The notes under the pieces were generated by a model. The model was given only the letters and a program-made list of their open reading frames with translations, was not told where the DNA came from and ran no database searches. 45,243 bases of DNA, from positions 1-45,243 of the IMG/VR virus record IMGVR_UViG_3300033144_003992; one strand, 5' to 3'. The stretch's first letter is position 1. Each line of letters begins with the position of its first letter. Made by a program: the position numbers and the translations under genes. Source of the DNA: a virus. Positions 157-31,298 of this stretch are shown one piece after another.

Positions 157-313
157 TACTTTGTCCTGTTGGATACGGTGAGTGCCACTCTCTCTCAATC
201 GGCACATATGCCTCAGCTTCTTGATAGGCTTGCGCTGTGAACATTATCATTGCCGTACTAAACAACAACACCAGCAAGATGATTGACCATAAAATGTCCT
301 CTTTTTTATTCAT
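149..313 (-). CDS. Small single-pass membrane protein (54 aa)
   Basis: The start ATG overlaps the helicase stop codon in an ATGA arrangement, so the two genes are probably translationally coupled. The protein has a charged start (MNKKED), then a strongly hydrophobic stretch at about residues 8-26 (WSIILLVLLFSTAMIMF), then a polar tail. This looks like an inner-membrane anchor or an uncleaved signal. No family is recognised. Small membrane proteins next to phage helicases are often host-takeover or exclusion factors, but nothing in the sequence proves that here. Confidence 0.65.
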   Translation of the reverse strand: MNKKEDILWSIILLVLLFSTAMIMFTAQAYQEAEAYVPIEREWHSPYPTGQSNE

Positions 314-1794
314 ATCAAATCCCTCACATTGGTTAACATATCTGCGTTTATGTGTTTCTGTACTAATGCTTCATATATCTTACTATCAACATCAATCTTA
401 GCCGGGACTGGGCACAACAGATCAATGATGTTAACGTGTTTGGTTTGGCCTATGCGATGGGCTCTGTCTTCCGCTTGTACTCTTATTCTGTGGCTGAATG
501 TGTTGCTGTAGAATTGCTCGTTCTCAGCCATTGTAAGCGTGTACCCAGCACCACCACAGGATTGGCTCATGACTAGGTATTCAATTTCCCCCTTCTGGAA
601 AGCGCGTCTGTAATCCTCTCGTTGTTTCTTGTCTACTCTGCCTGTTATTTCACCGATGTTGGATGATTTGGTTATGGACTCTAGCGCCCGGATAATGGCA
701 ATATGCTCTGCTTTATACCGCGCCCAGTAAAGAGTTGGGCCAGGGAAAGCCAGCGTGGTTTCAACTAAAAGGTCTATTTTAGGATTGATACCGGGTATAG
801 CAGTGGCATCCGGGTCATCATCGCTGGGCAGGAATCCTCCTACCACCTGCTGTAGCCTAATTAATTTGGTGAGTACAATGTCGGCTGTTATGAATCGGTC
901 TGCGGTTATCTCTGTGACGATCTGTCGGCAAACGTCCTTATATATACGCATGCCATCCTTAGTGAGAGAGCAAGTGCGCCTGTGCGGTATCTTATCCGGT
1001 AGATCCATACAGTCTGCCTTCTTACAGAAGTATGAAAAGTCCAATAGTTTCTTTTTCAATTCTGTTACATTCTGTGTGCCGGTGATAACGGTAATGCGCC
1101 TTGTATGAATCTTCTTCTTTTGGCGTTTATCGAAGTATGGCTTAACATTGATTACTTTATTTTCCAATGTGCAGTAACGCGCCCGGAAAGAATAGAAGTT
1201 GCTGAAGCCTAGTGGGTTAGGCATTAGGAAATTTAGTTGTGAGAAATAGTCTGACGCTTTACCGTCTGTGGGCGTGCCGGTTAGGATTGTTCTTGCCTTG
1301 GCTTGACGGGCTGCGCCTATGGCACCGATTGTTTGGCTCGCTCGCGGGGTGGCTATGATCTGAGACTCATCGCAAACCATATGGATTCTTTTTCTTTTAA
1401 GCCACCACGTGGCTAGTTTCTTGCCCTTGACTGTTCTTATTGCCTCAATATTCATTATGAGGAATGGCAATTGATCTTCCGGGGCATACATGACTGCTTC
1501 TAGCTTGGCAGCTACTTTCTTTGTTAGCGATGAGTCCCAAATAGCATAGACCGGGTTGACACGGTCTGGACAATGGGTATCAATTTCCTCTGTCCAAGTA
1601 TCCGTAAGAGAGTTGGGACAAAGAACCAGGACACCATCAATCTTATCATTCTCAAAAAGATAGGCTGATCGATCAATTGCTACTTTGGTCTTGCCGGTGC
1701 CTTGCTCCATGAAGTAAGCAGCATACGCAAAGTTCTTGGTCTTGTTAAATGCTTCCAGCTGTTGTGAGTATGGTTCGGTCTTGCCTTGGTACAA
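310..1794 (-). CDS. SNF2-family DNA helicase/ATPase
   Basis: The 494-residue protein carries the superfamily 2 SNF2-type motifs in order: motif I QGTGKT at residues 31-36, motif II DESQ at 142-145, motif III ILTGTP near 170, and motif VI EDRAHRIGQ near 453-461. The AHRIGQ form is typical of SNF2 proteins rather than DEAD-box helicases. It should translocate on double-stranded DNA and could act in replication, repair or DNA remodelling. There is no extra nuclease or targeting domain, and the length is about that of the bare two-lobe motor. The start is a TTG 6 bases after a GAGGAG Shine-Dalgarno sequence; no ATG lies nearby in frame. Upstream lies a structured leader that can pair with that Shine-Dalgarno. 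Confidence 0.93.
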   Translation of the reverse strand: MYQGKTEPYSQQLEAFNKTKNFAYAAYFMEQGTGKTKVAIDRSAYLFENDKIDGVLVLCPNSLTDTWTEEIDTHCPDRVNPVYAIWDSSLTKKVAAKLEAVMYAPEDQLPFLIMNIEAIRTVKGKKLATWWLKRKRIHMVCDESQIIATPRASQTIGAIGAARQAKARTILTGTPTDGKASDYFSQLNFLMPNPLGFSNFYSFRARYCTLENKVINVKPYFDKRQKKKIHTRRITVITGTQNVTELKKKLLDFSYFCKKADCMDLPDKIPHRRTCSLTKDGMRIYKDVCRQIVTEITADRFITADIVLTKLIRLQQVVGGFLPSDDDPDATAIPGINPKIDLLVETTLAFPGPTLYWARYKAEHIAIIRALESITKSSNIGEITGRVDKKQREDYRRAFQKGEIEYLVMSQSCGGAGYTLTMAENEQFYSNTFSHRIRVQAEDRAHRIGQTKHVNIIDLLCPVPAKIDVDSKIYEALVQKHINADMLTNVRDLI

Positions 1795-1910
1795 GCGATT
1801 CTCCTCAGCGACTCCCCAGAGTTAAATCTACACCCGGGAGGCTACGGCACGGATATGTGGCTATGTAGTCTTACTCCCGGGGCAGACTCGCAACGCTGAG
1901 GAGAGTTGCA
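1795..1910 (-). promoter_or_regulatory. Structured 5' leader that can sequester the helicase ribosome binding site
   Basis: Read on the - strand, CTCCTCAGCG (1903-1894) is perfectly complementary to CGCTGAGGAG (1810-1801), which contains the helicase Shine-Dalgarno. Inside this 10-bp closing stem a second helix forms between CTCCC-GGG sequences at 1874-1881 and 1832-1840. The CTCCTC strand can instead sit in the loop of a competing hairpin, GCAAC 1909-1905 with GTTGC 1894-1890. Two mutually exclusive pairings around the ribosome binding site is the layout of a translational switch. The ligand or trigger is unknown; pairing was found by eye, not by folding. Confidence 0.6.
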
Positions 1911-1916
1911 GACTTG

Positions 1917-1945
1917 ATTATGCCCGAGTCTTTAAAGCCCGACAA
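1917..1945 (-). promoter_or_regulatory. Sigma70-like promoter for the helicase operon
   Basis: On the - strand TTGTCG (1945-1940) and CATAAT (1922-1917) are separated by 17 bases, matching 4/6 and 5/6 of the consensus hexamers. The predicted start of transcription, about 1910, falls exactly at the beginning of the structured leader and downstream of the terminator of the preceding operon. That agreement raises confidence above what the hexamers alone would give. Confidence 0.6.
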
Positions 1946-2025
1946 GTATCCTCTTATTTATGGGGTAAAGAAAGTATTTTTTTTGGGTATGTTTATTAGG
2001 CTAAATGCGGTTGTGTTGCTGAAAA

Positions 2026-2081
2026 TCGGTCGCTTGGAATTCGGTCGCTTCAAAAATCGGTCGCTTGGAATTCGGTCGCTT
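2026..2081 (-). repeat. Four-copy direct repeat, core AAGCGACCGA
   Basis: The + strand decamer TCGGTCGCTT occurs at 2026, 2041, 2057 and 2072, spaced 15, 16 and 15 bases. The linkers alternate between GGAAT and CAAAAA types, so the array looks like a duplicated two-unit block. It lies in the non-coding gap between the left operon terminator and the helicase promoter. The same core recurs near 4413 and 6291. It could be an iteron or an array of regulator sites; the function is unknown. Confidence 0.8.
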
Positions 2082-2083
2082 CA

Positions 2084-2109
2084 ATTATACGCGAAATCAA
2101 ATTTGTTAA
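2084..2109 (-). promoter_or_regulatory. Possible weak promoter just upstream of the repeat array
   Basis: On the - strand a perfect TATAAT lies at 2089-2084 immediately before the AAGCGACCGA array. The best -35 candidate, TTAACA at 2109-2104, is only 14 bases away, which is short for sigma70. If active, transcription would run through the repeats toward the helicase. The remainder of the gap (1946-2025) shows no gene. Confidence 0.3.
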
Positions 2110-2130
2110 CGAAAGAAGGGTTTAAGATGT

Positions 2131-2165
2131 AAAAAAAACCCCACGAGCCAATGCCCGTGGGGTTT
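2131..2165 (-). terminator. Rho-independent terminator of the left operon
   Basis: The stem CCCCACG/CGTGGGG (2139-2145 with 2156-2162) has a 10-base loop. Read on the - strand it is followed by eight T residues, the classical intrinsic terminator. It closes the leftward operon that ends with the gene at 2176. Confidence 0.9.
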
Positions 2166-2795: not shown

Positions 2796-2986
2796 TACGC
2801 CACTCCTCTTTTGCGGTTATATTCATCAACAGCATCATCAGAGTAGAAACAGTGATATTGCCGCTTTGGATGTAGCCGTTGTAGCTCCGAGGCACGTTTG
2901 ACTGCTTGTTCTGATGTTTCGCATGTCCTAACTGTTTCTGTCCTACCATTCTCAAACTTTCGTTTGACATAATACTCAATAGCCAT
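2795..2986 (-). CDS. Hypothetical small protein (63 aa)
   Basis: The start MAIEYYVKRKF is fixed by the block GAGGAGAGAAAAATG, which recurs before many genes of this operon; longer upstream open frames would read through a hairpin. The protein is basic and rich in aromatic residues (YYV, YHCFY). No family is recognised. It heads a three-gene coupled unit ending at 2176. Confidence 0.8.
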   Translation of the reverse strand: MAIEYYVKRKFENGRTETVRTCETSEQAVKRASELQRLHPKRQYHCFYSDDAVDEYNRKRGVA

Positions 2987-3023
2987 TTTTCTCTCCTCAA
3001 TTACGGATACACAAATTGTATCC
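2987..3023 (-). promoter_or_regulatory. Stem-loop plus conserved ribosome binding block (copy A)
   Basis: The stem ggataca/tgtatcc (3005-3023, loop of 5) lies about 6 bases upstream of GAGGAG at 2998-2993, followed by AGAAAAATG. It belongs to the repeated hairpin-then-GAGGAGAGAAAAATG arrangement of this operon. A weaker second stem, CCCA/TGGG with one mismatch, lies at 3037-3055. Confidence 0.6.
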
Positions 3024-3065
3024 AAGCAACCCACCCCCAATCGTAGCGGATGGGCTGGCTGGATG

Positions 3066-3179
3066 CTACTTTTTGTCGTGGCCGCAACAACCTGGCCCAT
3101 ACATTTGTTTCCCAGATGCCTTCTTCTGAGCATACTTGGAGTTGGAGCCGGTTTCCATTTTCGTAGACCGGCGACGCAT
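3066..3179 (-). CDS. Very small basic protein with CCGH tail (37 aa)
   Basis: A compact open frame starts MRRRSTKMETGSNSKYAQKK and ends in a Gly-Cys-Cys-Gly-His-Asp-Lys-Lys tail. It starts two bases after the stop of the upstream gene, with TAAGG as a ribosome binding site. The strongly basic start and the short non-random sequence look like a genuine mini-protein, possibly nucleic-acid or metal binding. The function is unknown. Confidence 0.65.
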   Translation of the reverse strand: MRRRSTKMETGSNSKYAQKKASGKQMYGPGCCGHDKK

Positions 3180-3183
3180 TACC

Positions 3184-3435
3184 TTACTGCTCTGTTTGTT
3201 GCGCTTCATCTAACTGCTCCTTGATATTATCTCTGGACTTCTCAAGGTGATCCAGAAGTTTCTGTCGATTGAAGCGTGGCGATGTACCTAGCAAATTGCG
3301 AACATGCTGGGTAACGCTACCACGAGAGTGCTTCAAGCCCTGCGCCTCAAGATTGATACAAGCGATCCATTGACACAGTTGGAAATACTCTACCTCAACC
3401 AATTGTTTTTGGAAATTGTAGATCTGGCACCTCAC
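3184..3435 (-). CDS. Hypothetical protein with helical C-terminus (83 aa)
   Basis: The probable start is a GTG overlapping the stop of the upstream gene (GTGA). The middle has an HTH-like length and composition, and the last 30 residues (HLEKSRDNIKEQLDEAQQ) look like a coiled coil. A weak Shine-Dalgarno makes the exact start uncertain; an internal start is possible. No family is recognised. Confidence 0.7.
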   Translation of the reverse strand: MRCQIYNFQKQLVEVEYFQLCQWIACINLEAQGLKHSRGSVTQHVRNLLGTSPRFNRQKLLDHLEKSRDNIKEQLDEAQQTEQ

Positions 3436-3629
3436 TTTATCACCATAACCAAACGATCAGATTGGTACCGGATAGATACTGCCTGACCATTTGCATCTTG
3501 CTTGTTGATATAGCGACCCATGCTTGGACCAAATGAAGCAATCGTGAAATCCTTGTTGGCATCCCAATCTGCTTTAACTGCCTTCATGGACGTATAATTG
3601 CGGCCATATGCCGGTTGTAGTGTAAGCAT
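3432..3629 (-). CDS. Hypothetical small protein (65 aa)
   Basis: The start MLTLQPAYGRNY is set by the GAGGAGAGAAAAATG block. The open frame extends upstream to 3764, but that part would translate two hairpins and part of the neighbouring gene in another frame, so it is excluded. The sequence has a 'GRNYTSMKAVKADWDANKDF' pattern seen in small phage early proteins of unknown function. Coupled to the next gene by a 4-base overlap. Confidence 0.8.
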   Translation of the reverse strand: MLTLQPAYGRNYTSMKAVKADWDANKDFTIASFGPSMGRYINKQDANGQAVSIRYQSDRLVMVIK

Positions 3630-3686
3630 TTTTCTCTCCTCATATTGCGGTGAAAATTCACCAGTGGGCAGTCTCTGACACTGCCC
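3630..3686 (-). promoter_or_regulatory. Double stem-loop plus conserved ribosome binding block (copy B)
   Basis: Two stems precede the GAGGAGAGAAAAATG block: ggtga/tcacc at 3649-3662 and gggcagt/actgccc at 3666-3686 (7 bp, loop of 7). A third, agctga/tcagct at 3688-3703, overlaps the stop codon of the upstream gene. The stem sequences differ completely from the other copies while their position is the same. Confidence 0.65.
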
Positions 3687-3697
3687 TAGCTGAACTC

Positions 3698-3934
3698 TCA
3701 GCTGTGCGTATAGCCATCTGTCTCGATGCCGAGCCACATGCCTGACCACGGTACAAGGATACAATTGCCGCCGAAATACGGCTGTACTGTACGCCTGAAT
3801 TGGCGATAGGACAGATACTTGATCTTATCCGGGTACATGTACCAATAGTCATCCTTAGTTACGGCTGGGTTGGGGATTGGCCTACGGTCAAACACTTCCT
3901 TCAGCGCTACTCTTTGTTCTCTAGTGAGTTTCAT
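3698..3934 (-). CDS. Conserved phage hypothetical protein (78 aa)
   Basis: The sequence MKLTREQRVALKEVFDRRPI then YRQFRRTVQP, VPWSGMWLGI and the ending DGYTHS resembles a small conserved protein I recall from many phages of Gram-negative hosts, often without assigned function. The start has a perfect GGAGGT seven bases upstream. It overlaps the 3' end of the preceding gene by 14 bases in another frame. Confidence 0.85.
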   Translation of the reverse strand: MKLTREQRVALKEVFDRRPIPNPAVTKDDYWYMYPDKIKYLSYRQFRRTVQPYFGGNCILVPWSGMWLGIETDGYTHS

Positions 3935-4325
3935 ATCGCACCTCCGATATGGAGTGTGGGTGACCATCCTCAAACGCCTCCAACGCCAGATCCCGGCTAT
4001 CTGCTTCTGGTTTGTTCGCCGGGAAGTCTAACCAAGTACTGCCTGTGCCTTCGGCATTATCGTAGATGTCGTCGATGACCTTTGTAACAGCATAAAGATT
4101 GGCTGGAACAAGGCTTGATGACGTACTGATTGCGTGGTCGCAATCCATGAACCGTTCACACAACCGCACTTTGCCATCAACTGCGTACTTCTTGATTTCG
4201 TCGATGAATGCTTGCTTATCGGCTAATGCATCACCAGGCTGGCTAATAAAGTCATAACCATTCATCCGACATTTACGCCAGAATGCGTACCAATCTTTCC
4301 TGGCACATCTGTTTATGAGCTTCAT
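3921..4325 (-). CDS. Hypothetical protein (134 aa)
   Basis: The start MKLINRCARKDW overlaps the previous stop (ATGA). The protein has a basic aromatic N-terminus, then a central DCDHAISTSS segment and a C-terminal acidic stretch ending SEVRYETH. The central part resembles small phage proteins of unknown function. It belongs to the same run of early genes; no enzyme motif is visible. Confidence 0.75.
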   Translation of the reverse strand: MKLINRCARKDWYAFWRKCRMNGYDFISQPGDALADKQAFIDEIKKYAVDGKVRLCERFMDCDHAISTSSSLVPANLYAVTKVIDDIYDNAEGTGSTWLDFPANKPEADSRDLALEAFEDGHPHSISEVRYETH

Positions 4326-4549
4326 AACCAATTCCTTCTGCGGCTGGCCAAGGCGATCTTGTTGCGGATGCGATTCTTGCTGCGCCGTTTCGCCATCTGG
4401 GCTGACTTGAAATCGGTCGCTTGAGTTACGGTCGATGCGATTACTGGGTCAGGGCTTGTCCTGGAAGTTGGCATCCCAGTACCAACATTTCTGCTGGGTT
4501 GGGTGAACCAGTTCCTGATCTTATTGAATGCTCTATTCAACGTTCCCAT
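4322..4549 (-). CDS. Basic small protein containing a repeat-derived segment (75 aa)
   Basis: Starts MGTLNRAFNKIRNW after the GAGGAGAGAAAAATG block. The C-terminal third is very basic (AKRRSKNRIRNKIALASRRR), suggesting nucleic-acid binding. In the middle, the AAGCGACCGA repeat is read in frame and gives TQATDFKSA, nearly the same peptide (EATDFQSA) the repeat encodes near 6290. The repeat has therefore been absorbed into coding sequence. Confidence 0.75.
   Translation of the reverse strand: MGTLNRAFNKIRNWFTQPSRNVGTGMPTSRTSPDPVIASTVTQATDFKSAQMAKRRSKNRIRNKIALASRRRNWL
4413..4437 (-). repeat. One and a half copies of the AAGCGACCGA repeat, inside a gene
   Basis: TCGGTCGCTT at 4413-4422 is followed 15 bases later by a decayed copy, ACGGTCGATG at 4428-4437. 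The period matches the arrays at 2026 and 6291. Confidence 0.6.
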
Positions 4550-4616
4550 TTTTCTCTCCTCATATTGGTGCAAAAGCGCACCATATAGGATACTCCCGAT
4601 TTTGGAAATATCCTAT
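4550..4616 (-). promoter_or_regulatory. Double stem-loop plus conserved ribosome binding block (copy C)
   Basis: Stem tggtgc/gcacca at 4566-4583 (6 bp, loop of 6) and an 8-bp perfect stem ataggata/tatcctat at 4585-4616 with a 16-base loop stand directly upstream of GAGGAGAGAAAAATG. Confidence 0.65.
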
Positions 4617-4629
4617 TGGTAGACTCTCC

Positions 4630-4845
4630 TTATTCAATTTTGGCTTCGTAGCTGGTAGCTTCCATAAGGCTTAAAACCATATCATAGGCTTTCTGCCTAG
4701 ACTCTTGCCAATTGCCATCATACCAAGCCATACGACTGCCCTCTGAATCTAACAACTCGATTGATCCATAAGGCTTGTTGAACTTGTTACAAGTGGGCGC
4801 ATCTGCGCGTTGCAGCACAAAGCGAATTGTTGCTGTGATATCCAT
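4630..4845 (-). CDS. Hypothetical small protein (71 aa)
   Basis: Begins MDITATIRFVLQRADAPTCN one base after the stop of the upstream gene and ends before hairpin copy C. It is a mixed alpha/beta-looking sequence with WYDGNW in the middle. Its organisation resembles the upstream 86-residue protein (short beta segment, W-rich centre, helical end), but no family can be named. Confidence 0.75.
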   Translation of the reverse strand: MDITATIRFVLQRADAPTCNKFNKPYGSIELLDSEGSRMAWYDGNWQESRQKAYDMVLSLMEATSYEAKIE

Positions 4846-4846
4846 T

Positions 4847-5107
4847 TCAGTACTCCATCACTGTAGCACTTTCAGGGATAAGGCCAGCGCGTTTTGCTAC
4901 ATCAATGTACGCTTCTTTCTTGTTTTGGAAATAATGACCCCAGTAACAAGTATCATCGGCGTCCATTTCCCAAGTAACGAATTTATCATCATTCCACTTA
5001 GCCACAATCACTGTCCGGTCAACTGTCGTTGTTGCGACATTAGTGGCGACTTCTAATGAGATGATGATCTTGAGCAGGGGTGTTGCCCCATTTTTGAGCT
5101 GTCTCAT
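4847..5107 (-). CDS. Hypothetical protein (86 aa)
   Basis: The start MRQLKNGATPLLKI is set by the GAGGAGAGAAAAATG block. A segment FVTWEMDADDTCYWGHYF is rich in aromatic and acidic residues and is followed by a helical C-terminus (KKEAYIDVAKRAG). The function is unknown. It is directly followed by the 71-residue gene. Confidence 0.78.
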   Translation of the reverse strand: MRQLKNGATPLLKIIISLEVATNVATTTVDRTVIVAKWNDDKFVTWEMDADDTCYWGHYFQNKKEAYIDVAKRAGLIPESATVMEY

Positions 5108-5159
5108 TTTTCTCTCCTCGATGGACAATCCATCATAAAGCCCACTCAGAGAATGGGCT
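5108..5159 (-). promoter_or_regulatory. Double stem-loop plus conserved ribosome binding block (copy D)
   Basis: Stem gatgga/tccatc at 5120-5134 (loop of 3) touches the GAGGAG itself, and a second stem agccca/tgggct lies at 5139-5159 (loop of 9). Confidence 0.65.
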
Positions 5160-5168
5160 GTTGATAGA

Positions 5169-5912
5169 CTACTTTAACGATTGGCGTTCATCTTGGTTGA
5201 TTAGGCGGATACAAACTCTTGCCGTTTCATCCTCTGGCCCATAACCACCGTCGATGTAGCTGCTGAAGGTGGCGTGGCCGTGATACTTGACGTGGCGCCG
5301 AACTAATTGCCTGCCTTTCTTGCTGATGCCGAATGCCCGGTATGCTTCCGGGATAGACTTAAACGTAGTCCATTCTGGAAAGCCCTGCGAGGGGCACATT
5401 GCTTCTACTGCCGCTACAGTCCAGCCTTTCCTGTTTAGTGATTTACGCTTTGGGACTGGTACGCGCTTTGCTGTTGGTGGCGTGTCTTTGTAGACTATGT
5501 ATGCGACTTGGATGCGATGCATCCGGCCTGCTGACCAATCTACGATCTCTGTACCATTCCAGACTAGCACATGGCCACGTACCTTGATCATCACGATCTG
5601 GCCGCCGTAGTATTGAGCCAATTCTCGCTCAACCGTTCTCACCGTTTTGCTGATAAGTTGACGGTGCTGGATCTTGTTACGGTTCCACCCATTAATCGTG
5701 ATGCGGTCGATGGTGTGGCCTTGATCGCGAATGACTGAGTGGTAGTATTTCTCGTGCAGGCCTTTGCCCTTTCTTCTGCCTGCCGCTTTCAGCAAGCTAT
5801 GGGCTTCAGCGTACTCCATACCACAAACCACTGATACGGCGACAACCGTGCAGTCGTTGCCTTCCCTGTAGTCACGCGCATCCTCACGGATGTCCTTATA
5901 ACTCTTTTCCAT
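5169..5912 (-). CDS. Papain/C39-like cysteine peptidase-fold protein (247 aa)
   Basis: The N-terminal half has NDCTVVAVSV with a candidate catalytic Cys21, GHVLVW with His114 and EIVDW with Asp125, the Cys-His-Asp order of papain-like or C39-like peptidases found in phages and plasmids. The start MEKSYKDIRED follows the conserved ribosome binding block; an upstream extension would translate the hairpins. The C-terminal half (about 150-247) is basic and unassigned. It could process a phage or host protein early in infection; no substrate is evident. Peptidase activity is inferred from residues, not shown. Confidence 0.75.
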   Translation of the reverse strand: MEKSYKDIREDARDYREGNDCTVVAVSVVCGMEYAEAHSLLKAAGRRKGKGLHEKYYHSVIRDQGHTIDRITINGWNRNKIQHRQLISKTVRTVERELAQYYGGQIVMIKVRGHVLVWNGTEIVDWSAGRMHRIQVAYIVYKDTPPTAKRVPVPKRKSLNRKGWTVAAVEAMCPSQGFPEWTTFKSIPEAYRAFGISKKGRQLVRRHVKYHGHATFSSYIDGGYGPEDETARVCIRLINQDERQSLK

Positions 5913-5963
5913 TTTTCTCTCCTCTGGGAATGATTCCCAATATGCCCTCCGGAAAGGGCATAT
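5913..5963 (-). promoter_or_regulatory. Double stem-loop plus conserved ribosome binding block (copy E)
   Basis: Stem tgggaa/ttccca at 5925-5939 (loop TGA) and a 9-bp perfect stem atatgccct/agggcatat at 5940-5963 with a 6-base loop, adjacent to the GAGGAGAGAAAAATG of the peptidase-like gene. The first stem's core gggaatgattccc is repeated in copy G. Confidence 0.7.
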
Positions 5964-5968
5964 GGCGA

Positions 5969-6259
5969 TCACTCTGCTACGAAAGTAACCTGAGCTATCC
6001 AGAAACGACAACCTGGATGAGCTGTTGATACGGAAGGCATCGAGAAATTAGCTGATGCTAATTCTAATGGCCCAAGCCCTTCATCGAAACGGATAATGAG
6101 CCCGTCGATGCCTCCCATATCCCCAGCCAGATCACCTAGTACCTGACCGACTGCGGCGTGGAATGCGTCGTAAGACTCATCATCAGTAACTGGTTCCTCC
6201 TTGTCCTTTAAAGTGGTACAAAGGAACTTCTGGTTATAGTGGAACAATATCTTTCGCAT
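5969..6259 (-). CDS. Hypothetical protein (96 aa)
   Basis: The start MRKILFHYNQKFL follows CAGGAGAGACAAATG, a variant of the operon's ribosome binding block. The body is acidic with alternating beta-like segments (DGLIIRFDEGLG) and ends RFWIAQVTFVAE. The reading frame stays open for 65 more codons upstream, through three AAGCGACCGA repeats, to an ATC placed correctly behind an AGGAGAGG; an N-terminally longer protein is therefore possible. No family is recognised. Confidence 0.72.
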   Translation of the reverse strand: MRKILFHYNQKFLCTTLKDKEEPVTDDESYDAFHAAVGQVLGDLAGDMGGIDGLIIRFDEGLGPLELASANFSMPSVSTAHPGCRFWIAQVTFVAE

Positions 6260-6292
6260 TTGTCTCTCCTGATTTTTGGCGGATTGAAAATC
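6260..6292 (-). promoter_or_regulatory. Variant ribosome binding block with weak stem (copy H)
   Basis: CAGGAGAGACAAATG replaces the usual block. An AT-rich stem gatttt/aaaatc (6271-6276 with 6287-6292) occupies the hairpin position, followed upstream by the repeat array. This is the weakest member of the set. Confidence 0.4.
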
Positions 6293-6330
6293 GGTCGCTT
6301 CAATTTCGGTCGCTTCAATTTCGGTCGCTT
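6291..6330 (-). repeat. Three-copy direct repeat, core AAGCGACCGA, 15-bp period
   Basis: TCGGTCGCTT occurs at 6291, 6306 and 6321 with identical 15-base spacing and CAATT linkers. Because 15 is a multiple of three, the open frame reads through it as IEATE-IEATE-IEATD. Just beyond, a 13-base segment (TGATTGTCCACTG) is tandemly repeated near 6341-6365. Confidence 0.8.
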
Positions 6331-6374
6331 CAATTCTGCTCTGATTGTCCACTGATTGTCCACTGACCGGGCTG

Positions 6375-6511
6375 CGTGGTGACTGGAGTGTGAATGTCAC
6401 CACGGAGTCATGAACCCAATACCTAATGGGCTGATGGTTCCTGTGCGAACTGATTTCCTCTCCTAAGCCAGAATTGGCTCTGTAAAGCCACCTAGATGAT
6501 CCTAAGTGGCT
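6375..6511 (-). other. Hairpin cluster with a Shine-Dalgarno but no start codon
   Basis: This 260-base gap (6260-6518) holds the stems agccac/gtggct (6486-6511) and agcca/tggct (6466-6479), then AGGAGAGG at 6464-6457 followed by AAATCAG where other copies have AAATG. Further on, a 9-bp stem cgtggtgac/gtcaccacg lies at 6375-6404. It looks like a hairpin-ribosome-binding-site module whose start codon has been lost or altered to ATC (6454-6452), which is in frame with the gene at 5969. Confidence 0.5.
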
Positions 6512-6518
6512 GTCAGAA

Positions 6519-6767
6519 CTAATCCAGTGATATCAACAGCTCATCCAATTCGATGCCTGTCTCCATCACTACGTGCTCCCAATCATCCTGCTCGGCTGAC
6601 CGAGACCAGACTCCCAGCCCGTAGAAAAGAGCTGGGCCAAACGTAATTGCCGCCCAAGGCAGCCACCCGCCCAAACTCGTTGGGTTGGTCGTCATCGTCA
6701 AGATCCAGGCAAACTGACCGAATGCGTACGTAATGGACGCTAAAATAAAGCCATATACAAAGTTCAT
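6519..6767 (-). CDS. Two-helix membrane protein (82 aa)
   Basis: Hydrophobic segments at about residues 3-25 (VYGFILASITYAFGQFAWIL) and 35-55 (WLPWAAITFGPALFYGLGVW) indicate two transmembrane helices, with an acidic cytoplasmic tail. The start follows the conserved GAGGAGAGAAAAATG block. It is probably an inner-membrane early protein; a superinfection-exclusion role would fit such proteins but is only a guess. Confidence 0.8.
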   Translation of the reverse strand: MNFVYGFILASITYAFGQFAWILTMTTNPTSLGGWLPWAAITFGPALFYGLGVWSRSAEQDDWEHVVMETGIELDELLISLD

Positions 6768-6812
6768 TTTTCTCTCCTCATAGTGGAAAACCCACTAGAA
6801 TGCGCCCGCATT
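6768..6812 (-). promoter_or_regulatory. Double stem-loop plus conserved ribosome binding block (copy F)
   Basis: Stem tagtgg/ccacta at 6781-6797 (loop of 5) and stem aatgc/gcatt at 6799-6812 lie directly before the GAGGAG of the membrane protein gene. The second can also pair with a further cgcatt at 6821-6826. Confidence 0.6.
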
Positions 6813-6835
6813 GGAGCAGACGCATTTGGTGGACT

Positions 6836-7192
6836 TTATACGTAATTGGCTATCTGGTGATTCCTGATTCCGTCAGAACCAGGCTTGTTTACCATTTTCG
6901 TCACGATACCACGAGCCTGCTTACGAGTCTTGACGCCTTCCAGTTTCTCGATCTTGTCGAGGAAAGTGGATACTTTCAGTGTGCGCTTGGAAGCCTTGCA
7001 GAGCAGTTCGTAAGCCAGCCTACGTGGGAAGCCCTTATAGAAATGCTCTTCCTGACCTGCGACTGCCTTGATCTTACGAGTTTCATCCAATTTTGCCTTC
7101 TTTTGGACTTTGGCTGCCGCTTTGGGCTTGGCTGTCTTGGTGGACTTACGCGTGGTCTTTGCTTTTGCCGTTTTTGCTTTAGATGTGGTCAT
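6836..7192 (-). CDS. Histone H1-like, Lys/Ala-rich DNA-binding protein (118 aa)
   Basis: The first 45 residues are a Lys/Ala/Thr tail (MTTSKAKTAKAKTTRKSTK and similar), as in H1-like or AlgP-like nucleoid proteins. Residues 50-118 form a globular-looking domain with FYKGFPRRLAYELL and a basic end. It probably binds DNA or RNA through the tail. The start follows GAGGAGAGAAGTAATG; the ORF's earlier start would translate that ribosome binding site. As the first clear gene of the leftward operon it may act very early. Confidence 0.8.
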   Translation of the reverse strand: MTTSKAKTAKAKTTRKSTKTAKPKAAAKVQKKAKLDETRKIKAVAGQEEHFYKGFPRRLAYELLCKASKRTLKVSTFLDKIEKLEGVKTRKQARGIVTKMVNKPGSDGIRNHQIANYV

Positions 7193-7248
7193 TACTTCTC
7201 TCCTCAATTGGGCAGAAATGCCCCTAGCGTGGTACGGGAATGATTCCC
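7193..7248 (-). promoter_or_regulatory. Double stem-loop plus conserved ribosome binding block (copy G)
   Basis: Stem gggca/tgccc at 7210-7223 with a four-base loop and stem gggaa/ttccc at 7236-7248 precede GAGGAGAGAAGTAATG. The second hairpin shares the 13-base core gggaatgattccc with copy E. Confidence 0.65.
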
Positions 7249-7325
7249 CAATAGCGCCCGGCTGTACGAGCCCAGACGCTACTGGCGATCACTAAGATCA
7301 CAAGGAGAGAGAAAAAATGTTTCAT
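7224..7325 (-). CDS. Possible tiny exported or membrane peptide (33 aa)
   Basis: The frame reads MKHFFSLLVILVIASSVWA followed by a short polar tail, a textbook signal-peptide pattern with a candidate cleavage after the final Ala. It lies just upstream of the histone-like gene. There is no good Shine-Dalgarno, and a competing small frame exists on the other strand, so this is tentative. Confidence 0.4.
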   Translation of the reverse strand: MKHFFSLLVILVIASSVWARTAGRYWGIIPVPR

Positions 7326-7379
7326 CGCGAATTGGCCGTTACCAGCCCATACGATGCGTCTAAACCAGATCCCAGCTAG
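7317..7379 (+). CDS. Possible 20-residue leader peptide
   Basis: AAGGAGAGAGAAAAAATG on the + strand resembles the ribosome binding block used elsewhere, and opens a 20-codon frame starting MFHRELAVTSPYD. It overlaps the start of the - strand peptide at 7224-7325; at most one of the two is likely to be real. It could be a leader for rightward transcription into the 1.6-kb gap. Confidence 0.25.
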   Translation: MFHRELAVTSPYDASKPDPS

Positions 7380-7472
7380 ACTTTCCTTATCCAGCCAGAC
7401 CGCCTGATTGGGTCATATCCATGACTTCGATCCCGGGGAACTGCTCGCATCGCTCGCGATTACTTCTCTGGG

Positions 7473-7564
7473 GCGCGTAATCCTTACGGACGCGCTCACA
7501 CCGGCCAGAGACCCACACCGCAATCGGAGGAGCGGTTAACTCTAGGGCGGGCGTACCTCCCGCC
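7473..7564. other. GC-rich hairpin pair in the control region
   Basis: gcgcgt/acgcgc (7473-7495) can alternatively pair internally as cgtaa/ttacg with a TCC loop. ggcggg/cccgcc (7546-7564) has a 7-base loop. Neither has a T-run on the + strand, so they are not simple terminators. The surrounding 7430-7640 stretch is clearly more GC-rich than its neighbours. Confidence 0.5.
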
Positions 7565-8019
7565 GCACCGGGCTCACGCTACCGGCCACCTCCCGCTTCT
7601 TACGCGCCAAACGGCACTCAGACTACGCGCAGGCTAGAGGTACTTAGAGCCAAAAGCTGGGCTCACCCTGCGATAGAGGTACTATGACCTGTGTGCTAAT
7701 GAAACGCAAACGTGCTGAATTCTCTTTATATATCAACGACTTATACCTGGCCTGATTCCCTGGCGAGATGCAAACTTGCATTATTTTACCGCTCCGGAAA
7801 TAAAAAAAGCGTATAGAAAACAACAGGTTACGAGTGGGAATGACTTATCAAGAATGATTCCTACGCTCCGGGAGGGAGCAATTGATTGGGTAGGTAGTGG
7901 ATATTATTGGTGATCGTATGGGCTGAGGATTGACGAATGGTGATATGGGCTGTAGCCTAGTATGGGGAATAATGTTGGTTGCCCTGGCCTTGTAGAATGC
8001 TTTGGTATTAGTTGGATGT

Positions 8020-8065
8020 GTCTTTGCGGATATGCGCCTCCAAGACTCTAGCAGGCCTATAGCAA
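8020..8065 (+). repeat. 46-bp direct repeat, copy 1
   Basis: Identical over 46 bases to 8150-8195. It contains a possible stem gtctt/aagac enclosing a GC-rich inner loop. Downstream, gcaagac (8062-8068) can pair with gtcttgc (8107-8113) across the spacer. Confidence 0.85.
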
Positions 8066-8149
8066 GACGCGCAAGAATGGGTTGGGCGATGCCCTGGCCG
8101 GGAGTGGTCTTGCTTAGAATCTTGTAGAATGCTTGACTGGGCTAGACTG

Positions 8150-8195
8150 GTCTTTGCGGATATGCGCCTCCAAGACTCTAGCAGGCCTATAGCAA
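8150..8195 (+). repeat. 46-bp direct repeat, copy 2
   Basis: Second copy of the 8020-8065 element, offset 130 bases. A further shared stretch, cttgtagaatgctt, precedes both copies (7989 and 8121), so the duplication was originally longer. Confidence 0.85.
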
Positions 8196-8327
8196 AGTAG
8201 CAAGATGGTGATGGAGATCTGGCCTGGCGATTGCCTTAATGCTTTGTTAGAGACCAATATAACAAAGATCAGCGCGTGTTTAGAATGAGTCTAAATGATC
8301 TGGCCGTGCCTCCCGGAAAAGTGTGTC

Positions 8328-8380
8328 TAAGCTGTTGATTCTATGGGGGTTTCAAAAAAGCCTTATAGAACAACAGCTTA
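8328..8380. other. Long near-perfect hairpin
   Basis: taagctgttg (8328-8337) pairs with caacagctta (8371-8380); after one bulged A, ttctat pairs with atagaa (8339-8344 with 8365-8370). The helix continues through GU, GC and AU pairs with one mismatch to a CAAA loop at 8353-8356. Roughly 24 pairs over 53 bases is far more than chance would give in this region. It could be an RNase III site, a small RNA or a protein-binding site. Confidence 0.75.
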
Positions 8381-8393
8381 GAGCTGAAAGGAT

Positions 8394-8419
8394 GGTGTTC
8401 CTATAGTAGAAGGGACACC
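8394..8419. other. Second stem-loop next to the long hairpin
   Basis: ggtgttcc pairs with gggacacc (one GU) around a 10-base loop. It follows the 8328-8380 hairpin by 13 bases, so the two may form one structured RNA. Confidence 0.5.
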
Positions 8420-8574
8420 GATATGGCCTATATACCTGGGTCTGTTAGGGTTGTAGTGGTTATACAGGGATATTAACAGGTTACAGTGGATATATATTAT
8501 CGTTTGTTAGGAGTCAGTACCGTATCCCGGGCAAGATGGTTCCCCATCACGGATTTTGATTCGGCCTATAGACA

Positions 8575-8601
8575 TTGTCGGTTAACTGTTTGATTTATAA
8601 G
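8575..8601 (+). promoter_or_regulatory. Weak candidate rightward promoter
   Basis: TTGTCG (8575-8580) and TATAAG (8596-8601) are separated by 15 bases, shorter than optimal. The -35 hexamer is the same as in the better promoter at 1945-1917. If active it would read toward the terminase genes. Confidence 0.25.
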
Positions 8602-8822
8602 GGAAAACTGGCATTTTTGGGTCTTTTTGCAAGCAATCCTTGCTCTGCCTGCATATTTCCGGTAGGGTCACACATAACCCCATTTGTTTGTGATCGCACC
8701 TGGCTCCGGTCATCTCCGGCACGATAGCTAGCAAATGAGGATAGAGTCCAGAGGCACTATCCAGTAGGCAATGGGTCTTTGCCGATGCTTCCCGGTACTG
8801 GGGCTGTGGCGAATTGGCTCGA

Positions 8823-8848
8823 TGGAGGAGGGCAGTGGAGGAGGGCAG
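8823..8848 (+). repeat. 13-bp tandem repeat, two copies
   Basis: TGGAGGAGGGCAG is repeated exactly, head to tail. It lies about 150 bases before the terminase small-subunit candidate, where packaging sites are often found. Confidence 0.7.
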
Positions 8849-8885
8849 ATCAAATCAGTTGGATAGGTATCCAATCCATTGCCAC

Positions 8886-8907
8886 CTGGCGCTCGTTCCT
8901 GCGCCAG
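8886..8907. other. Stem-loop before the terminase genes
   Basis: ctggcgc/gcgccag, 7 bp with an 8-base loop. No T-run follows on the + strand. It may shape the late leader or belong to a packaging site. Confidence 0.45.
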
Positions 8908-9003
8908 TTGCAGAGGCTTATATAGTGAAATTATGTGCACCGAGATTTTGAAAAAAGTTCAAACCAAGCAATCTAGTAATTGCTCTAAATCAAAGCCATC
9001 AAC

Positions 9004-28109: not shown

Positions 28110-28354
28110 CGCTGCTTAGAAAAAGTTTCCGAGCAGCGAAACAGGGATCATACTACGTTGATGAAGTTGTTTGTGGATTCTCATCCTCATCGTGGATAAG
28201 TCTAATGGAGGAGACTTATTCAATCAACGGGATGGGAGGATATGACTTCAAAGGCTGGCCTGACGGCAAACCGTTGATTGAGCAGGAGCAGTGCGTTGTG
28301 GACATATTGAAAATTCTTTTATCTGAATGGATGAGGTCTTTGTCTGATGGCTAG
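27768..28354 (+). CDS. Tail assembly chaperone, -1 frameshift product (gpG-T-like)
   Basis: Ribosomes in frame on G GGA AAC (28097-28103) can slip back one base to GGG AAA and continue from 28103. The -1 frame is closed by TAG at 28082-28084 upstream and open for 83 codons from 28103 to the stop at 28352-28354. It reads RLTLLRKSFRAAKQGSYYVD at the junction and overlaps the tape measure start by 8 bases. Lambda uses GGGAAAG in the same place. A hairpin, gctgctt...gagcagc (28111-28137), lies just downstream and could stimulate slippage. Confidence 0.88.
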
Positions 28355-31298
28355 AAGGAATGTAGCAGAATTCAAAGTTAAGGTCAAGGATGACGCCAGC
28401 CATGCACTCCAGAGTGTTAACAAAGAAGTTGGGCTGCTTGGTGGAAAGTTAAAAGGGCTGGCTGGCGTTGCTTCTGGATTAGCGGCTGTACTTGGCACAA
28501 GAGAAATTCTTCAAATGGCCGATTCATACCGGCTATTGCAGAACCGTCTAAAGCTAGTAACAAAAAGCACTGAAGAACTAAATGCAGTCACAAGAGAGAT
28601 TGTAGCAACTTCTTTTGAAGCAAGAACGTCGTTCCAATCCACTGCTGATCTATATGCCCGTGTTGCTCGTTCAAGTCGTGAGTTAGGATTAAGCCAACGC
28701 GAGCTTATAACATTTTCAAAAACAGTAAGTAAATCAATCCGTATATCTGGTAGTACAGCCCAAGAAGCAGCCGCCGGTGTTATCCAGTTTGGTCAGGCTC
28801 TTGCTAGTTCCCGGTTGAGTGGTGATGAGCTTCGGTCTGTCCTAGAACAAATGCCCCGGTTAGCTCAAGCCATCGCTGAAGGAATGGGCGTTGGTATTGG
28901 TAGACTCCGGGAGATGGGCGAAGCTGGTGAGCTTAGTGCTGAGAGAGTTCTTGAGGCTTTACGGAAAGTTGAATTTGAAATGGCATTGGAGTTCTCTGCT
29001 CTTGATCCTCTTGTTTCTGAGGCAATGGGGAATGTTCAGACTGCTTTGATGACCACCATTGGCTTGATTGATAAGACCTCTGGTGCATCAGCGTTTATGG
29101 CTGAAAACATAATTGTTGCAGCAAAACAGCTGATTTTATTTGGTGAAGCTGCTACTGGTGCTTTGACAAAGGTCAGACCACTGAATGAATCGCAGAAAGA
29201 ATGGGCACTTTCAGTCTCTAAAGCCATTAAAGCAGGGAAAGGGTTGGAGGCTGTTTTAAGAGAAAGCACTGATGATACAGTAGCGTTGGCTGGTGCTCTT
29301 GGCGTAACAATTCAGGAACTCATAGACCTTGAAGGAACAGCAGCAGCTTTTGACGGCACTATTGATTTGACTTTTGAAGGAATTAAAGGCGCAATCGAAG
29401 AACACAAAGACCTTCTTGCAGTTACAAAAACATTAGCAGGGGCATTTGTGATTTTGCAGTTCGCTGCTATCAGTTTTTATGATTCACTGAAATTGAATTC
29501 ACCACTGCTATTTAAAATTCCCGGGGAATTTGTTGCTGCTTTCGCCGCGCAAGTGCACGCTGGTGCAACGCTTGCTGGCCAAGGCGATGCTGCCACTGAC
29601 GCGATATACGCAATTGGTGCATCATTTAATGAAAGGCTTTGGTCAGGGTTTGATTCTGGTGGCCCAACGTTAGAAGAACGAAAAGCTAAACTGGAAACTG
29701 ATTTCAAAGCAATGATGGATGCTTTAGATAAAATCAACTTTCCAGAACTCCGTCCTGATGCCTTGGAAGTTGACCTCGATGCTGATTCAGATGCTCTTGG
29801 TGACATTGGGCGAAAAGCGCGTGAAGAATTAGCTAGGAGCACAAAGACATTAGAGAAACTGAAAACCACCATCTTGCAACAATCACAAGCATATGTGATT
29901 GTTGCTGAGTCAGGTGGTAAGTACAAAGATGTGCTCCAAGAAGTTAAAATCAAATCCTTGGGCGCAGCTACATCGCAGGCAGAATTAGTCAAGCAAGCAG
30001 TTTTGCTAGCTGAAAAAGAAGATATACCTTATGCAGCGGCGTTGGCAGTAGTCGAGGAAAAATCACAAGGCGCAACTGAAGCATTAAAGAAACTTTCAGC
30101 TGAGGTGCTCAAAGCAGATAAAGAACTTAGAGTGAACATAAATATTGCGTCAGATAAAGATGCACTTGCTGATTTGCGTGAACGGATACATCTTGAAAGA
30201 ATTAGTGCAAAAGCTAAATTTGTTTACATCGAGCTACAAAAAATATCTGCAGAGATGAGTGGAGAGGAAGCAACAGCGTATCAAATACTTGCTGAAGAAT
30301 TATTTGATCTAATGGAAGTAACGAATGAGCGATTGAAATTTATGGAGAACGCAGCGGAACAAGCAGCGCAAAATATGCAAAATGCCTTTGCTGAGTTTTT
30401 CTTTGACCCGTTTGAAGATGGGTTGAAGGGGCTGTTGGTTGGGTTCCTTAATGTTATTCGCCGGATGATCGCAGAAGTGCTTGCGTTTCAGGCTCTGGAA
30501 TCAGCTAATGAGAGTAGTGGTTGGCTCTCAATGGTGTTTAAAGGTATTACTGGTGCCGCAACCAGCAACACTAATACAGACACAGGCAATGGCCTCCCGG
30601 GTGCAGCAGCTGGTGGGCCAATAAGGAAAGGTCAAACTGCTTTAGTTGGAGAGCGTGGCCCAGAACTATTTGTTCCATCTGTACCCGGGATGATTAAGGC
30701 TGAGTCTGATATAGGCGACACAAGAAGTAAGGCAATTGAGAAAGGCATCCCGGTTATAGTTGGCACAAATGGCCCAGAAATATTTACGCCAAAAAAGGCA
30801 GGTCGTGTTAAGCCACACACTGCTATAGGCGATATTGCCACTGTCGTAATTAAAGAAGGCCAACCAGTTTTAATTGGTGATAAGCGAAAAGAAAAGACAC
30901 AAGAAGGTCAGCCAATTATAATAAAAGAACATAGCCAAGAAACATTCAACAATGAAATACTTCCGGAGCGAGCAGCTGGTGGCCCAGCCCTAGCAGGGCA
31001 GCCCATCTTAGTCCCGGAGCGAGCAGCTGGTGGCCCAGCCCTAGCAGGGCAGCCCATCTTAGTCGGGGAACGTGGCCCAGAACTATTTGTGCCAACAGGC
31101 TCCGGGAGAATCAAGCCCAATTCTGGTGCTGCTTCTATAGGTAGAGGAAGTGGTGATACGCAATTTGTAACGAACATTGATGCACGCGGCGCTGACCCGG
31201 GGCTTATTGCTAGGCTCCCGGCTATCCTAGAAGCTCGGGACAGGAACCTAATGGCGATTATGCAACGTTTCGTTGAAACAGGAGTCATGCCGATATGA
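28347..31298 (+). CDS. Tape measure protein (983 aa)
   Basis: N-terminal residues about 1-215 match tape measure proteins (LLQNRLKLVTKSTEELNAVT, LASSRLSGDELRSVLEQMPR). Long helical segments follow. The C-terminal residues from about 753 hold a repeated AAGGP-xAGQPxLVGERGPE module in at least six copies, two of them exact 51-bp duplications. It sets tail length and assists DNA entry. 983 residues suggests a tail of about 140-150 nm if the usual 0.15 nm per residue applies. Confidence 0.9.
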   Translation: MARRNVAEFKVKVKDDASHALQSVNKEVGLLGGKLKGLAGVASGLAAVLGTREILQMADSYRLLQNRLKLVTKSTEELNAVTREIVATSFEARTSFQSTADLYARVARSSRELGLSQRELITFSKTVSKSIRISGSTAQEAAAGVIQFGQALASSRLSGDELRSVLEQMPRLAQAIAEGMGVGIGRLREMGEAGELSAERVLEALRKVEFEMALEFSALDPLVSEAMGNVQTALMTTIGLIDKTSGASAFMAENIIVAAKQLILFGEAATGALTKVRPLNESQKEWALSVSKAIKAGKGLEAVLRESTDDTVALAGALGVTIQELIDLEGTAAAFDGTIDLTFEGIKGAIEEHKDLLAVTKTLAGAFVILQFAAISFYDSLKLNSPLLFKIPGEFVAAFAAQVHAGATLAGQGDAATDAIYAIGASFNERLWSGFDSGGPTLEERKAKLETDFKAMMDALDKINFPELRPDALEVDLDADSDALGDIGRKAREELARSTKTLEKLKTTILQQSQAYVIVAESGGKYKDVLQEVKIKSLGAATSQAELVKQAVLLAEKEDIPYAAALAVVEEKSQGATEALKKLSAEVLKADKELRVNINIASDKDALADLRERIHLERISAKAKFVYIELQKISAEMSGEEATAYQILAEELFDLMEVTNERLKFMENAAEQAAQNMQNAFAEFFFDPFEDGLKGLLVGFLNVIRRMIAEVLAFQALESANESSGWLSMVFKGITGAATSNTNTDTGNGLPGAAAGGPIRKGQTALVGERGPELFVPSVPGMIKAESDIGDTRSKAIEKGIPVIVGTNGPEIFTPKKAGRVKPHTAIGDIATVVIKEGQPVLIGDKRKEKTQEGQPIIIKEHSQETFNNEILPERAAGGPALAGQPILVPERAAGGPALAGQPILVGERGPELFVPTGSGRIKPNSGAASIGRGSGDTQFVTNIDARGADPGLIARLPAILEARDRNLMAIMQRFVETGVMPI
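30963..31064 (+). repeat. Exact 51-bp tandem duplication in the tape measure gene
   Basis: 30963-31013 and 31014-31064 are identical and encode two copies of a 17-residue unit (RAAGGPALAGQPILVPE type). Identity at every third position means the duplication is recent. Confidence 0.9.

Follow-up and report, generated by a model that had tools for sequence, protein, structure and literature searches.

A putative Shine-Dalgarno-sequestering leader of the SNF2-type helicase gene in an uncultivated phage

Can a phage helicase mRNA hide its own ribosome binding site by means of its first bases, and, if so, could it be opened again? The question is raised by an IMG/VR phage record of 45,243 bases without end repeats (this whole stretch is called the window below), in which a leader extending from about 1910 to 1795 on the minus strand precedes an SNF2-type DNA helicase gene. 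The first-pass annotation had proposed a translational switch at this place. The leader described here is a candidate for a conserved RNA switch, located where the early genes meet the replication genes in an uncultivated phage lineage.

The gene product matches Pfam SNF2-rel_dom (1.8e-18) and phrog_62 DNA helicase (5.6e-89). The TTG start codon is backed by the alignment of the start region, MYQGKTEPYSQQ, with MYNYKTEPFKHQ from a Pelagibacter phage helicase as well as with the helicase of a related genome, G001. A non-ATG start is kept in kind in the two homologous genes, i.e. TTG in the window and the weak GTG in G001, and the first-pass annotation had taken the TTG as a sign of restrained translation.

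Leader architecture and promoter

The segment TCTCCTCAGCG (1904-1894), termed anti-SD, forms 11 contiguous Watson-Crick pairs with CGCTGAGGAGA (1810-1800) on the minus strand, and the perfect complementarity between the beginning of the leader and the helicase Shine-Dalgarno (SD) region noticed earlier is thereby confirmed; the inverted-repeat arms around the two segments are 16 nt long and 88% complementary. In the minimum-energy fold of the sense leader, this helix (P1) meets two hairpins, P2 and P3, in a three-way junction (Table 1), and by computed folding the SD is stably paired with a segment further upstream in the leader, as is expected of an SD-sequestering leader. Note that the junction side of P2 needs G-U pairs and forms in the sense RNA only; a strand asymmetry of G-U pairs, considered as a sign for the plus strand, was dropped since P2 needs these pairs in the sense RNA. 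Opening the helicase SD costs 4.8 kcal/mol, as compared to 0.1-1.7 kcal/mol in five of the eight early genes with a GGAGAG-type SD. The costs span 0.1 to 8.5 kcal/mol across the early genes, so the helicase value is high yet inside the range, and the early genes at 7192 and 4845 reach or exceed it without the architecture of the helicase leader.

Judged from the window alone, the SD/anti-SD pairing is only modestly above chance. Of the 32 gene starts of the window that were tested, that of the helicase has the longest helix (11 bp), and shuffled leaders gave an 11-bp helix with the helicase SD in 2 of 2000 cases, corresponding to about 0.06 over some 60 genes, while by our own estimate about 1.5 inverted repeats of 11 bp within 150 nt are expected per 45 kb. 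The fold z-score of 1909-1795 is -4.3 to -4.8 for the sense strand and -5.8 to -7.0 for the antisense strand, i.e. the antisense strand folds at least as well as the sense leader, and similar z-scores were reached elsewhere in a coarse scan of the whole window. What makes the pairing convincing is the conserved homologous leader in G001, described in the next section.

The promoter with a 17-base spacer that had been placed ahead of the leader is present, and it is the top-scoring sense-strand site of both the window and G001, at the same aligned place; in both leaders transcription from it would start at the first bases of the leader. The site matches the consensus at 9 of 12 positions, but such sites are also expected there by chance, 3 being found in the region versus 2.1 in shuffled sequences.

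The upstream region also carries repeats. TCGGTCGCTT occurs in eight exact copies in the window (2026-2081, 4413-4422 and 6291-6330), adjoining promoter-like sites, and is partly retained at about 1230-1260 of L226, the locus of the G001 helicase leader; these repeats are possibly operators or origin repeats.

Table 1. Features of the window at the helicase leader and at the early-gene starts
Feature	Position	Strand	Remark
SNF2-type DNA helicase gene, TTG start	310..1794	-	Pfam and PHROG matches, G001 homologue
P1 3' strand CGCTGAGGAGA, holding the SD GAGGAG (1808-1803)	1800..1810	-	kept as CCTGAGGAGA in L226
P3 hairpin ACTC-TGGG-GAGT	1811..1822	-	also SD look-alike CTGGGGAG, alternative partner of the anti-SD
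P2, GAGTCTGC/GTAGATTT and CCCGGGAG/CTCCCGGG	1824..1889	-	one-nt bulge, variable apical part; in L226 minimum-energy fold
Conserved block (promoter, H0, anti-SD, P2 5' strand)	1880..1953	-	93% identical over 74 nt in G001, one inserted T aside
H0 hairpin GCAAC-TCTCCTCAGC-GTTGC	1890..1909	-	anti-SD in loop; alternative to P1
Anti-SD TCTCCTCAGCG, P1 5' strand	1894..1904	-	contains CTCTCCTC, sole reverse complement of GAGGAGAG in the window
Sigma70-like promoter TTGTCG-17-CATAAT	1917..1945	-	predicted start near 1910; aligned in L226 with TAGACG-17-CATAAT
Four TCGGTCGCTT repeats, 15-16 nt spacing	2026..2081	+	upstream of the leader
Possible second promoter TCGTTA-17-TATAAT	2084..2112	-	upstream, abuts the repeats
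Intrinsic terminator of upstream early operon	2136..2165	-	present in L226 too
GAGGAGAG, early-gene cassette	2991..2998	-	preceded by hairpin TGGATACA-ATTTG-TGTATCCG
GAGGAGAG, early-gene cassette	3634..3641	-	
GAGGAGAG, early-gene cassette	4554..4561	-	
GAGGAGAG, early-gene cassette	5112..5119	-	
GAGGAGAG, early-gene cassette	5917..5924	-	
GAGGAGAG, early-gene cassette	6772..6779	-	
GAGGAGAG, early-gene cassette	7198..7205	-	

Conservation of the leader in a related genome

With the DNA polymerase of the window as query, three records with 76-78% identical polymerases were found, and one of them, G001 (42,261 bases), carries a homologous helicase together with its leader (L226, at about 1300-1500). 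The two leaders share a 74-nt block running from GAGGATACT to CTGCCC. It is 93% identical, whereas the helicase genes are 62% identical at the nucleotide level and reach 83% in their best 75-nt stretch, which argues that the block is specially constrained; the promoter that it contains may account for a part of this conservation.

Folded on its own, L226 gives an independent minimum-energy structure in which the P1-P2-P3 junction recurs, one-nt bulge included. The comparison with homologous leaders that had been suggested for covariation was possible with this one relative, and it revealed two double compensatory changes between the two leaders (the records are possibly incomplete): a C-G to G-C change in P1 beside the SD core, and another C-G to G-C change in P2. 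In addition, there are four one-sided consistent changes, two of them in P2. Over 29 pairs in the window and G001, 96.6% of the cells are standard pairs, and sliding of the partners lowers this to 40-55%. The rows were made gapless for the count by removing the variable apical loop and omitting one G001 T beside P3. With only two sequences, the result did not stand out from the column-shuffle control, in which 121 of 500 shuffles equalled it. The G001 leader folds weakly in comparison to its shuffles (z -1.7), P1 takes a share of 15-64% of its ensemble, and its antisense fold does not contain P2. Taken at the level of the aligned sequences, the SD/anti-SD helix is a conserved RNA element, kept with matching changes next to a helicase of 62% identity.

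Searches covered public collections (IMG/VR, genome contigs and phages). The helicase as a single query gave no relative in viral and genome contigs, and a helicase alignment as query gave 80 relatives, all at 38% identity or less. These distant relatives were rejected as a source of homologous leaders, as the leaders that were read have short, non-homologous palindromes of divergent promoters. In the marine ones, facing sigma70-like promoters form a palindrome between divergent genes; in eight cases (L011, L021, L032, L034, L040, L043, L046 and L048) a divergent gene of about 120 aa lies across the palindrome, with TTGACA-17-TAtatt-like promoters. A capsid query found one 96% relative of 9.6 kb that does not include the helicase-leader region. 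A pattern of the conserved block had no match in genome contigs, nor had the G001 leader in phages by blastn. Inverted-repeat and iteron patterns in IMG/VR were discarded as chance matches in coding DNA of unrelated phages, and matches to an SD-cassette pattern in the same collection were mostly chance.

A few other repeats deserve to be recorded. Positions 7300-9000 of the window form an ORF-poor stretch of about 1.7 kb that contains a direct repeat of 46 nt (8020 and 8150) and an inverted repeat of 12 bp (8326-8382), both perfect, and a 51-nt tandem repeat (30958-31059) lies within an ORF of 983 aa (28347-31298). In an unrelated phage contig (L093, 14-77), GAAGCGACCGA repeats lie within a gene immediately preceding one for an ATPase, which resembles a helicase loader of the DnaC type, an arrangement resembling an origin inside an initiator gene.

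Possible switching, early-gene cassettes and competing explanations

A hairpin GCAAC/GTTGC with the anti-SD in its loop (H0) had been put forward as the competitor of P1. Its sequence is present at 1909-1890, but as a competitor it is weak in the window, where the P1, H0 and SD-open forms have energies of -60.4, -53.2 and -55.7 kcal/mol, respectively, i.e. H0 is about 7 kcal/mol worse than P1; in G001 (-63.2, -63.0 and -60.2 kcal/mol) H0 and P1 are isoenergetic. The cheapest SD-open state of the window, about 5 kcal/mol above the repressed form, is one in which the anti-SD (CUCCUCAG) pairs with CUGGGGAG, which resembles the SD and lies shortly before it. Control by a ligand or by temperature, also suggested by the first-pass annotation, found no support; no ligand pocket or metabolic logic is apparent, and Rfam covariance models gave no match at gathering thresholds and only chance-level ones in 1600-2200 at a permissive threshold.

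From these energies, repression of helicase translation by the leader appears likely and its action as a switch plausible, so the whole is best described as a repressive, probably switchable translational leader. We propose the following course of events. The helicase mRNA would start near 1910 with the structured leader, the first segment of which, the anti-SD, would close the three-way junction by pairing with the helicase SD, some 85 nt further along the RNA, and the P1 so formed would exclude the ribosome from a gene that is already weak in its start codon. In vivo, repression would probably be lifted once the anti-SD is diverted, be it into H0, onto CUGGGGAG or onto another RNA, and the likeliest RNAs for such a diversion may be those of the early genes, with conserved GAGGAGAG sites that fit 8 nt of the anti-SD. 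That an anti-SD/SD three-way-junction leader restrains helicase translation is the best explanation overall, and we regard it as reasonably probable.

The early-gene sites need to be discussed at this point. At early-gene starts, GAGGAGAG is part of a cassette: a long hairpin is followed by a short one of 5-8 bp, whose end lies 0-6 nt ahead of GAGGAGAG, and after GAGGAGAG come an A-rich stretch and ATG. There are seven such cassettes in the window (2986-7205, minus strand) and 11 in G001 (L227, 3919-8722), the latter being 10 starts and one orphan site without a start codon. The hairpins are present in 18 of 18 cassettes with 17 distinct stems, i.e. the pairing is kept and the sequence is not. 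Their innermost five pairs are complete in all 18, as compared to 2.3 of 5 after exchange of arms from one cassette to another, a contrast that is somewhat overstated as the hairpins were chosen as the best per leader; the shuffle test used the same picking rule, and the combined chance of hairpins this good corresponds to a chi-square of 146 with 36 degrees of freedom. In the helicase leader, P2, P3, SD and start follow one another as the elements of a cassette do, and the anti-SD arm comes in addition; the leader looks as if it had been derived from the start cassette common to early genes of the phage, i.e. two hairpins, SD and start, by acquiring this arm. A cassette-like double hairpin with an SD and no start codon, followed by a repeat array and the next gene, is also seen at about 6480 of the window (minus strand) and at 5130 of L227.

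The distribution of GAGGAGAG raises the question whether the anti-SD acts in trans. All seven minus-strand copies in the window belong to cassettes and the one copy on the other strand is the helicase anti-SD; G001 has 14 forward copies and one reverse copy, again at the helicase leader. This single reverse complement per genome, always at the helicase leader, leaves room for a trans role, in which an RNA from the 1945-1917 promoter would show UCUCCUCA in its 5' hairpin loop and pair with the GAGGAGAG sites of early mRNAs; early translation would be shut off as the helicase operon turns on, and the pairing with the helicase SD would be a side effect or a feedback. In both genomes the anti-SD matches the cassette SDs at 8 of 8 positions and its cis partner at 7 of 8, the predicted duplex energies are -15 to -19 kcal/mol for cassettes versus -8 to -13 kcal/mol for non-cassette early SDs, and the GTTGC of H0 is conserved though it is mostly unpaired in the cis structure. 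On the other hand, purine-rich SDs match any anti-SD to some degree, a scan of the leader found no terminator by which a small RNA of its own could be set free, and the double change in P1 favours pairing in cis because it lies just outside the SD core, at a position where early-gene sequences vary. We consider regulation in trans unlikely. A combined arrangement, in which the leader supplies the RNA partner of a start-associated sequence system and the one anti-SD loop per genome pairs with early GAGGAGAG sites as well as with the helicase SD in cis, so that their competition couples helicase translation to the abundance of early mRNA, seems to us equally doubtful. The anti-SD strand matches the SDs of all marked early genes, so that phage development may be controlled at this point.

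Relief by timing of transcription, as in T4 gene e, is quite improbable. Here the helix would block only read-through or early transcripts, and a promoter inside the leader would give an mRNA that lacks the anti-SD; there are precedents in T4 e, soc, 49 and I-TevI (PMC3014915, PMC2988022), and in the distant marine relatives of the helicase a sigma70-like promoter stands right before the SD, its -35 arm being in the inverted repeat. In the window and in G001, by contrast, the stretch separating the anti-SD from the SD is devoid of notable sigma70-like sites, and the conserved promoter sits upstream of the anti-SD. Less probable still is the freeing of the SD by RNase III or another nuclease cutting the long hairpin; such cleavage is known from the lambda N leader and other phage processing sites, and P1 and P2 make a long double-stranded RNA in both genomes, but P1 has just 10-11 bp and P2 is bulged. 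Least probable of all, in our view, is that the inverted repeat serves as a DNA element or results from the presence of a divergent gene, with two facing SDs forming a palindrome as they do in the marine relatives and a 72-aa ORF (1914-2132, plus strand) as the second gene: GAGGAGAG does stand about 8 nt ahead of a TTG on the plus strand and the helicase faces a divergent ORF in 14 of 14 distant relatives examined, but this ORF has no family match, has a near-neutral codon score (0.036) and overlaps the repeats, while P2 fits the sense RNA alone and the inverted repeat contains no facing promoters.

Comparison with known systems

It is useful to compare the helicase leader, read as a cis-acting restraint on translation, with systems described elsewhere. 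In translational riboswitches the SD is part of the helix that closes a three-way junction and a competing hairpin holds the anti-SD. The leader has both of these features, and no Rfam match. Phage-encoded small RNAs and anti-SD loop RNAs expose a CU-rich loop complementary to SDs; the leader shares such a loop, which is here a part of an mRNA leader.

At first sight, the closest parallels are T4 gene e, soc, 49 and I-TevI, in which the SD is sequestered in a leader helix (PMC3014915, PMC2988022). As in the window, a part of the leader further upstream pairs with the SD region of a phage gene, and the SD is thereby enclosed in a long helix. In T4, however, a late promoter lies between the two strands and its mRNA escapes, whereas the conserved promoter of the window lies upstream of the anti-SD, so that every transcript from this promoter can be folded shut; a promoter between the strands that yields an unfolded mRNA was found in neither genome. 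The leader resembles the SD-sequestering leaders of T4 in its putative action and lacks the inter-strand promoter that defines them.

The early-gene cassettes are reminiscent of the SAS and ESAS elements of mycobacteriophage cluster K and Microbacterium phage cluster EF, in which a conserved SD-like motif at many starts (PMC3203893, PMC7302621) adjoins an upstream element, an inverted repeat in cluster K. The conserved motif at the SD position is found at seven starts in the window and at 10 starts and the orphan site in G001. The upstream inverted repeat is where the two differ: the arms of the cluster K repeat share a consensus sequence, whereas the cassette stems differ from gene to gene (17 distinct stems in 18) and pairing alone is kept. 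The parts of the two reports drawn on here describe no RNA complementary to SAS, and PMC3203893 leaves it open whether the partner of SAS is a protein or an RNA; in the window and G001, there is one such complementary sequence per genome. We speculate that pairing with a sequence of this kind may explain the retention, in some phages, of identical SD-like motifs at a large number of gene starts.
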